This document shows, one piece after another, positions 2,997 through 59,290 of a stretch of 64,000 nt of DNA (position 1 is its first letter; every line of letters begins with the position of its first letter). The notes below the pieces were generated by a model. The model was not told where the DNA came from. It made no database searches and saw nothing but the letters and a program-made list of their open reading frames with translations. This stretch comes from Methanoculleus bourgensis MS2 (lineage in GTDB: Archaea; Halobacteriota; Methanomicrobia; Methanomicrobiales; Methanoculleaceae). The position numbers were made by a program, and so were the translations under genes. Where the stretch lies: contig NC_018227.2 in assembly GCF_000304355.2 (NCBI RefSeq), forward strand, positions 806,001-870,000, written 5' to 3'.

Positions 2997-3238
2997 TGCC
3001 GAGTCAATCATTCAACGTCGGATAGAGGCTTTACCAGTGCTCGTTGTCATCTTCAATGTAGAGATCTCCTCTCCCTCTTCGCGACCTCCCGCGTGAGATG
3101 TTGGTGCTCTCTATGGCCGCACTGCCTCACGCGAAGACGCGAAGGCCTTGATGAGGCGTTGCATCTCAGGCATCAAAATCTTCAAAATAACGTGACACGA
3201 TGCACTATTGCGACAATTTGTCGTTGACTCAGCACTAG
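2993..3238. repeat. CTAG-ended TIR element, nested copy (unit 1)
   Basis: The outer ends are inverted copies of CTAGTGCYGAGTCAA (2993-3007 and 3224-3238). Inside is a second unit (about 3035-3207) with its own inverted ends, AGTGCTCGTTGTCATCTT on the left and the reverse of TAGTGCATCGTGTCAC on the right. It surrounds a palindromic core with CTTCGCG and CACGCGAAGACGCGAAG. No ORF of substance is present. The arrangement looks like one small element inserted in another. Confidence 0.7.
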
Positions 3239-3472
3239 TGCTCGTTGTCATCTTCAATGTAGAGATCTCCCGCCTCTCTTCGCGACCTTCGCGGTTCCCG
3301 TGTGAGATGTTGGTACTCTCTAGTACCCCTCACGCGAAGACGCGAAGACGCGAAGGGGCGTTGCAGGGGATTATATCGAACTTCGCGCTCTTCGCGTACT
3401 TCTGCGTGAGACCAGAGTGCCCATCCCGGCACGTTCCAAAAATCTCTAAAATAAGGTGACACGATGCACTAG
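3235..3472. repeat. CTAG-ended TIR element (unit 2)
   Basis: This second unit shares the CTAG at 3235-3238 with the preceding copy. It starts CTAGTGCTCGTTGTCATCTT and ends with the inverted TAGTGCATCGTGTCACCTTA. The core is a long imperfect palindrome: CTTCGCGACCTTCGCGG on one arm, CACGCGAAGACGCGAAGACG centrally, then CTTCGCGCTCTTCGCG. The right end lies 8 bases from the stop codon of the phosphatase gene on the other strand. Confidence 0.75.
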
Positions 3473-5535: not shown

Positions 5536-5812
5536 CTATGGGACTATTTCACCTTATCATGTGGGTCCTGGTGCAGATCGCCACCTCACGCGAAGGCGCG
5601 AAGAGCGCGAAGAGGTCCGGTTGGGAGGGGCTACACGGGCATCAAGACTTCGTGTGAGACTGAAGCACCTCTTTATACTGCAACCGCTCGCGTTGCCGTG
5701 AAGAGCGCAAAGGGGGGCGGTTGGGCGGAGCTACACTGACTTCGCGTCCTCACGCGTGCTTCCGCGTGAGGCAACAATCGCATGAACAATATCAGATGAG
5801 ATGCTCTACTAT
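5536..5812. repeat. TIR element, inverted relative to the 55.7-kb pair
   Basis: The left end (GACTATTTCACCTTATCATG, then GGGTCCTG) matches the reverse complement of the right end of the 55.7-kb units. The right end (ACAATATCAGATGAGATG, then CTCTACTA) matches the reverse complement of their left end. Internally it carries CACGCGAAGGCGCGAAGAGC and, farther right, TCACGCGTGCTTCCGCGTGA. It is longer (about 277 bp) than the 180-bp units because of an internal duplication-like stretch. The terminal CTAG has decayed to CTAT. Bases 5813-6058 beyond it show nothing supportable. Confidence 0.65.
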
Positions 5813-33349: not shown

Positions 33350-33891
33350 CTAGTGCATCGATTCCAAATTAGCAGATCATATCTGGCCTTCGTCCCATGC
33401 CCCGCGGAGCGCTCCCCTCCGTCCCCCCCACCCCGCCTGGCCTGCGGCCTCCTCCCCCGCCCCCAGGGGCGGGGGCAGTCATGGCGATATCCGGTGGAAC
33501 GCCGCGCCAGGGGGTGGTGCTGACGCCGGTTTCCCGAAAGACCGGGAAGAATCGGCCAGCAAGAACCAGCTAGAAACTGGTTCTTCCCCGGGATCTCCCC
33601 ATGCAGTGGACCGTGGTGGATATCGCCATGGGGGTGGGGCTGACGGGGAGGGGGCGTCGCCCCCTCCCCTGTCTCTGCCTCGTGTCTTCAGCGTCCAGAC
33701 TCAATTCCTACAGATAGCCATACGCCTGTAACCCCCTCCCCGCAGGCGGGTACCCGTACGTTCCTCCTCAAAGCCCCCGCCCCCGGAAGGGGGCAGTATG
33801 TGGGGATACCGGGATGCAAACCCCGGAGAGTGTAAAAAGATCGATACTCTCCTCCGTTGAGAGTGCCGGTAATTGAGAATCGTTGCACTAG
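33350..33891. repeat. 542-bp element with CTAGTGCA inverted ends
   Basis: The left end CTAGTGCATCGATTCCAAAT (33350-33369) is matched by the reverse complement of the right end, CTAGTGCAACGATTCTCAAT, with four mismatches in 20. The inside is very G/C-skewed, with GGGGGC tracts and GGATATC/GATATCC motifs in both orientations. No convincing ORF exists. The terminus matches the smaller CTAG-ended elements. The rest of 33257-34072 shows no gene. Confidence 0.6.
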
Positions 33892-55687: not shown

Positions 55688-55865
55688 CTAGTAGAGCATT
55701 TCATCTAATATTGTCCATGCAATACCATCTCACGCGAAGGGCGCGAAGCCGCGAAGTTCGGTTGCTGGGCGGCAGAGTCCCCTTCGCGTTCTTCGCGTCT
55801 TCGCGCGAGGTGGCGATCGCTACTACGCATCAGGACCCGCAACATAAGGTGAAATGGTCCACTAG
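55688..55865. repeat. CTAG-ended TIR element, tandem unit 1
   Basis: It starts CTAGTAGAGCATTTCATCTA and ends with the inverted TAGTGGACCATTTCACCTTA-like sequence. The core contains CTCACGCGAAGGGCGCGAAG and the matching arm CTTCGCGTTCTTCGCG. It has no ORF and shares the final CTAG with unit 2. It is 178 bp. Confidence 0.8.
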
Positions 55866-56045
55866 TGTATCATTTCATCTAATATTGTCCAGGCAATACC
55901 CTCTCACGCGAAGGGCGCGAAGCCGCGAAGTTCGGTTGCTGGGCGGCATCGTCCCCTTCGCGTTCTCACGCGTGGCTTTCCGCGTGAGGTGGCGATCGCT
56001 CACCCCGCATCAGGACCCGCACCATAAGGTGAAACGGTCCACTAG
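55862..56045. repeat. CTAG-ended TIR element, tandem unit 2
   Basis: It starts CTAGTGTATCATTTCATCTA at the shared CTAG and ends with the inverted TAGTGGACCGTTTCACCTTA. The sequence is closely similar to unit 1 over 180 bp, except for a TCACGCGTGGCTTTCCGCGT change in the right arm. The right end is 5 bases from the stop of the gene at 56051. Confidence 0.8.
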
Positions 56046-59201: not shown

Positions 59202-59207
59202 CCATGG

Positions 59208-59290
59208 CCTCACGCGAAGGCCGCGAAGCCACGAAGGGGTGTTGCAGGTACCCGGACAGATCTTCGCGTCCTTCGCGGCTTCGCGTGAGG
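59208..59290. terminator. Long palindrome between convergent genes
   Basis: CCTCACGCGAAGGCCGCGAA and its arm (...TTCGCGGCTTCGCGTGAGG) form an imperfect stem of about 30 bp with a loop of about 20. It lies 6 bases after the thiI stop, between two convergent genes, and can work as a bidirectional terminator. The sequence is the same core as in the CTAG-ended elements, without their ends. Confidence 0.6.

Follow-up and report, generated by a model that had tools for sequence, protein, structure and literature searches.

Tandem CTAG-flanked MITEs in Methanoculleus bourgensis and their probable mobilisation by IS630-type transposases

Tandem units and further copies in the window

The window analysed here is a stretch of 64,000 nucleotides from the chromosome of Methanoculleus bourgensis MS2. 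At positions 55688-56045, it presents two short units arranged as CTAG-unit-CTAG-unit-CTAG. A preliminary description of this DNA had proposed two units of about 180 bp with a single CTAG at their joint; the positions given there were exact and the units measure 170 and 176 bp. The features of this locus are the following (strand is indicated where it was assigned):

55688-55691: CTAG, left copy of the 4-bp target duplication
55692-55861, minus strand: unit 1, family A MITE of 170 bp, left end TAGAGCATTTCATCTAAT, right end TGGACCATTTCACCTTAT (reverse complement), nhmmer full-length hit
55731-55805: imperfect palindromic core of unit 1 (CACGCGAAG ... CTTCGCG)
55862-55865: CTAG common to units 1 and 2
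55866-56041, minus strand: unit 2, family A MITE of 176 bp of a different subtype (CGTGGCTTTCCGCGTG variant), nhmmer full-length hit
55905-55985: imperfect palindromic core of unit 2
56042-56045: CTAG, right copy of the target duplication

The two units are short, non-coding and bounded by imperfect terminal inverted repeats, as is typical of MITEs. They lie in the same direction and present an overall identity of 88%, whereas the best matches found elsewhere reach 97% for unit 1 and 96% for unit 2. Other copies are present in the window:

2993-2996: CTAG target copy, which holds the TAG stop codon of the open reading frame 2481-2996
2997-3234: family C composite, with C ends around a nested B unit
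3038-3204, plus strand: B unit nested in the C composite, with flanks that are now CCAG and CTAT
3235-3238: CTAG common to the C composite and the following B unit
3239-3468, plus strand: family B MITE, whose ends resemble those of the IS630-type insertion sequence at G000:1857 kb
3469-3472: CTAG, right target copy
5536-5539: CTAT, left target copy (non-CTAG site)
5540-5808, plus strand: diverged A-type MITE inside another repeat, absent from the preliminary description
5809-5812: CTAT, right target copy
33350-33353: CTAG, left target copy of the D element
33354-33887: family D element, 534 bp long, with TGCATCGATTCCAAATTA and TGCAACGATTCTCAATTA at its ends
33888-33891: CTAG, right target copy of the D element

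These copies were assigned to four families with an identical target. Family A units are about 175 bp long with the ends TGGACCRTTTCACCTTAT and TGGAGCATTTCATCTAAT, and family B units about 220 bp with the ends TGCTYGTTGTCATCTT and TGCATCGTGTCAYCTTAT. Family C starts with TGCCRAGTCAA and several of its copies are composites that enclose a nested B unit; family D starts with TGCATCGATTC. Whole-genome searches of the single 2.79-Mb contig identified about 40 loci for each of families A and B, and we estimate that this chromosome carries about 180 A/B units. Beyond such searches, sequence was read from stretches that represent part of the chromosome. We also searched the genome with the end motif CTAGTRNNNNNTNNCANCTHA and obtained 370 matches when one mismatch was allowed, against 8 for the reversed control. 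The single pattern that had been proposed for all four ends of the units near 3.2 kb and 55.8 kb thus holds as a loose motif of multi-copy ends, but it does not define one family: the two sites have the target and this motif in common, yet the former contains B and composite C elements and the latter A units.

Two minor features of these copies can be added. The interior of the D element at 33354-33887 appears unlike those of families A, B and C. In addition, C composites with a B unit inside C ends have spread as a whole to several loci (2997-3234, L004, L022, L023 and L025).

Target duplication and empty sites

The tetranucleotide CTAG was observed 20 times in the window compared to about 58 expected occurrences, and 104 times in a spread-out sample of 400 kb compared to about 360 expected. 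With CTAG depleted about threefold relative to expectation, chance does not account for its occurrence at every joint. The duplicated target consists of four bases, NTAN, and is mostly CTAG. Full-length family A hits show identical 4-mers on both sides at non-CTAG sites too. Among 35 solitary units with good ends, 23 were not bounded by CTAG on both sides and 11 of these 23 presented an exact 4-mer repeat: ATAG (two), CTAT (two), GTAT (one), GTAG (two), TTAG (one) and CTAC (three), in families A, B and D. None of 20,000 permutations reached 11 identical non-CTAG 4-mers, and the agreement between left and right flanks peaks at exactly the four duplicated positions. Unequal flanks were found in a minority of copies, mostly B units nested in C or copies that differ by one or two bases; as a group, rather than copy by copy, they are explained by mutation, nesting or misplaced ends.

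The dinucleotide TA usually lies within the duplicated stretch, yet four bases are duplicated. A duplication of TA is known for IS630 and ISY100 (PMC2170065). Such a canonical IS630/Tc1-mariner duplication of TA only, with the outer C and G belonging to the ends of the element, would look the same as a 4-bp one at CTAG sites. This alternative is hardly credible, since the direct repeat at non-CTAG sites includes both outer bases, empty sites hold one target copy, and the reading frame of a gene interrupted by a relative in CGAG/CGAG (described below) is back after the removal of four bases. Our own first reading of the NTAG/CTAN ends was a TA-only duplication, which was dropped as both outer bases were found to be duplicated.

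Empty sites with a single target were found in relatives, as the preliminary description had anticipated for a mobile element. The search of the joined flanks in the genus revealed relatives without an insertion at the 3.2-kb site, among them G034, where a single CTAG is followed by the same flank. Five relatives lack the family A copy at 1,019,414 and have one CTAG there, which contains the stop codon of the upstream gene. One B site is matched in G034 by one copy of CTAC whose left flank has diverged, and an A site flanked by ATAG corresponds to a single ATAA in G028. The repeat that hosts the A copy at 5540-5808 (CTAT) has paralogous copies without the insertion. Around the 55.8-kb array, the flanking genes are conserved in relatives and the intergenic spacer is too diverged for an empty site to be read. 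The units are therefore multi-copy sequences with target-site duplications and empty sites, as expected of MITEs. A literature search for a report of MITEs in Methanoculleus returned nothing relevant.

It can also be observed that the insertions at 2993-2996 and G000:C1:1019414 both sit in CTAGs holding the stop codon of the upstream gene. The target duplication keeps this stop codon intact in both cases.

Probable IS630-type partners and the formation of arrays

The preliminary description had noticed no obvious transposase in the window, which is consistent with our finding of IS630-type transposases elsewhere on the chromosome. The genome encodes three DDE_3 proteins, whose catalytic halves fit the IS630 model NF033545 with 118 and 159 bits (cut-off of 100) as well as PF13358. 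Their N-terminal helix-turn-helix part lies in a frame of its own that overlaps the catalytic one, which suggests programmed frameshifting of these split transposases. Frameshifting is known for IS630 elements (PMC5009743). As a side observation, a run of seven A is found near the frame overlap of the IS630-type transposases at L043 1361-2565, L054 5338-6553 and L055 10018-11234.

The three IS630-family insertion sequences of the genome all stand at CTAG. Two of them are copies of IS-1 and present C-like ends, and the third, IS-3, is present in one copy with B-like ends; the C composite at 2997-3234 has ends like those of the IS630-type insertion sequences at G000:570 kb and 620 kb. By end similarity, families B and C probably have autonomous partners. 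The search for a transposase gene with the same ends revealed IS630-type elements with B-like and C-like ends, whereas the genome yielded no autonomous element bounded by A or D ends. The similarity of these ends to those of B and IS-3 suggests that the transposase of A and D is also of the IS630 type. Both copies of IS-1 adjoin A units with one CTAG in common, in one case at both ends, which indicates that autonomous elements join the same arrays. Homologues of these insertion sequences in the genus are bounded by CTAG where the boundaries are readable. Since every autonomous IS630 copy of Methanoculleus with both ends readable stands at CTAG, our reading of a 4-bp stagger for the archaeal enzyme relies on the MITEs and on bacterial relatives.

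Another type of transposase could in principle generate similar duplications. MITEPsy1 of Pseudomonas syringae duplicates four nucleotides, CTAG or YTAA, and has a putative IS5 origin (PMC3189936), so that an IS5-type (DDE_Tnp_1) transposase duplicating CTAG/YTAA-like sites might have moved the units. We consider this to be extremely improbable: none of the IS4/IS5-type transposases of the genome (six matches to PF01609 and one to PF13586) was found with the ends of these elements, and B-like and C-like ends are carried by IS630-type elements instead.

We then considered the origin of the arrays. We examined 27 pairs of neighbors with exactly one 4-bp site in common, and 14 of them combine units of different families. 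In all 13 A-A pairs, both members have a closer match elsewhere than the adjacent unit. These mixed-family pairs and the closer similarity of neighbors to distant copies are explained by serial insertion. The preliminary description had raised the possibility of unequal recombination, and tandem units might indeed derive from one inserted copy by this process or by replication slippage. The orientation of A-A pairs, mostly head-to-tail (11 of the 12 of known direction), and the array at L044 13466-13994, with near-identical neighbors and GTAG joints, are in line with such an origin. It is nevertheless very unlikely to be the main source of tandem units given the 14 mixed pairs and the best matches found elsewhere for all 13 A-A pairs, and the head-to-tail bias can be accounted for otherwise, likely by the loss of long inverted repeats. 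Mixed-family neighbors present no clear bias in orientation.

We conclude, with a probability of about 0.92, that the units are MITEs moved in trans by IS630-type, CTAG-targeting transposases and that the arrays form by serial insertion into regenerated CTAGs. The initial view of a non-autonomous family with terminal inverted repeats, inserting site-specifically at CTAG, is supported by the multi-copy ends, the single-target empty sites and the IS630-type elements with matching ends. Under the proposed mechanism, an IS630-type transposase would join the ends (TGG...CCA and similar) over a stagger of four bases with TA in the middle. Given its strong preference for CTAG, a single CTAG would be turned into two that flank the new copy, such that each insertion would leave two intact targets where one stood. 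Later elements of any family with the same target could then land in either CTAG, and the rarity of free CTAGs would lead to arrays sharing single CTAGs. Transposition is presumably cut-and-paste, and the similarity of the ends suggests that each family is mobilised in trans. Apart from the copying of their four-letter target, these elements are ordinary selfish DNA.

In the 400-kb sample, an element was found on both sides of 6 CTAGs and on one side of 17. By a rough hand estimate, random insertion into about 90 sites would yield about 2 two-sided CTAGs, which leaves an excess. The purging of insertions in genes would produce such an excess.

Related systems and the palindromic core

A scan of genome contigs identified 80 related transposase loci, many of them in Actinomycetota and others in further phyla. 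Based on the comparison of multiple copies and a scan of the ends, CTAG was found on both sides in 22 of the 44 relatives scanned, which represents most of the readable cases. Other relatives presented the flanks CTAC/CTAC, GTAG/GTAG and CGAG/CGAG. The CGAG/CGAG copy is inserted in a 2-oxoglutarate dioxygenase gene of Streptomyces: removing the insertion sequence and one CGAG yields a continuous DIOX_N domain across the joint with the frame restored, whereas the gene would stay out of frame if the repeat taken out were just 2 bp long. This Streptomyces also carries two insertion sequences in tandem with one CTAG in common.

Several known systems present related properties. IS870 of Agrobacterium is a member of the IS630 family. 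A CTAG target is required by IS870, according to the title cited in PMC6471742, and ISPsy32 of Pseudomonas syringae, also of the IS630 family, uses CTAG repeats as its target (PMC8027508); both resemble the Methanoculleus elements in their target, but they are autonomous and bacterial. No description of MITE arrays was found for IS870 or ISPsy32 in the literature available to us. IS630 of Shigella sonnei combines a DDE_3-type transposase with a preference for 5'-CTAG-3' (Tenzen and Ohtsubo, as cited in PMC2170065), like the Methanoculleus partner elements. However, it was reported to duplicate TA only (PMC2170065), whereas four bases are duplicated in Methanoculleus; elsewhere, the target of IS630 is stated as NTAN (PMC5678879). 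MITEPsy1 is a small non-coding MITE that duplicates CTAG or YTAA as the Methanoculleus MITEs duplicate their four nucleotides (PMC3189936), but it is probably derived from IS5, measures 100 bp and has few copies and other ends. Finally, the MITEs/SMRs of Haloquadratum walsbyi are also abundant non-autonomous elements of an archaeon and often target other mobile elements (PMC3119063). They nest mostly inside PATEs and IS605-type elements, whereas the Methanoculleus arrays are built end to end at regenerated CTAGs.

The elements described here are thus new MITE families of a known kind, related to an IS630-type, CTAG-targeting subgroup. The 4-bp duplication is the sole feature that departs from the description of a TA duplication (PMC2170065); its novelty is mild and it may already be recorded in ISfinder. 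These results suggest that a widespread IS630-type subgroup, found in archaea and several bacterial phyla, probably uses a 4-nt NTAN stagger and not a 2-nt TA stagger, and that the copying of a rare target seeds self-extending arrays. Our analysis identifies a large repeat population in a Methanoculleus methanogen and offers a simple rule for tandem transposons: a rare target is regenerated by being copied. If the 4-bp duplication is confirmed for the enzyme, it would broaden what is known of target joining among IS630/Tc1-mariner elements and provide a natural pair for the comparison of 2-nt and 4-nt staggers.

The palindrome CACGCGAAG...CTTCGCG, which had been described as the conserved core of the units, is common to families A and B but is not specific to these elements. 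The exact motif has 181 matches in the genome and was present in 8 genomes out of a sample of 197 from the phylum; a literature search for the CGCGAAG palindrome returned nothing relevant. In the 400-kb sample, no recognisable transposon end was detected near 7 of 29 cores. Because the palindrome also stands alone, here and in relatives, it is a separate repeat that the MITEs carry, rather than a feature that defines the mobile unit. Examples of CGCGAAG palindromes without transposon ends are found at 59205-59290 of the window and in other Methanoculleus genomes (L273, L274 and L277).
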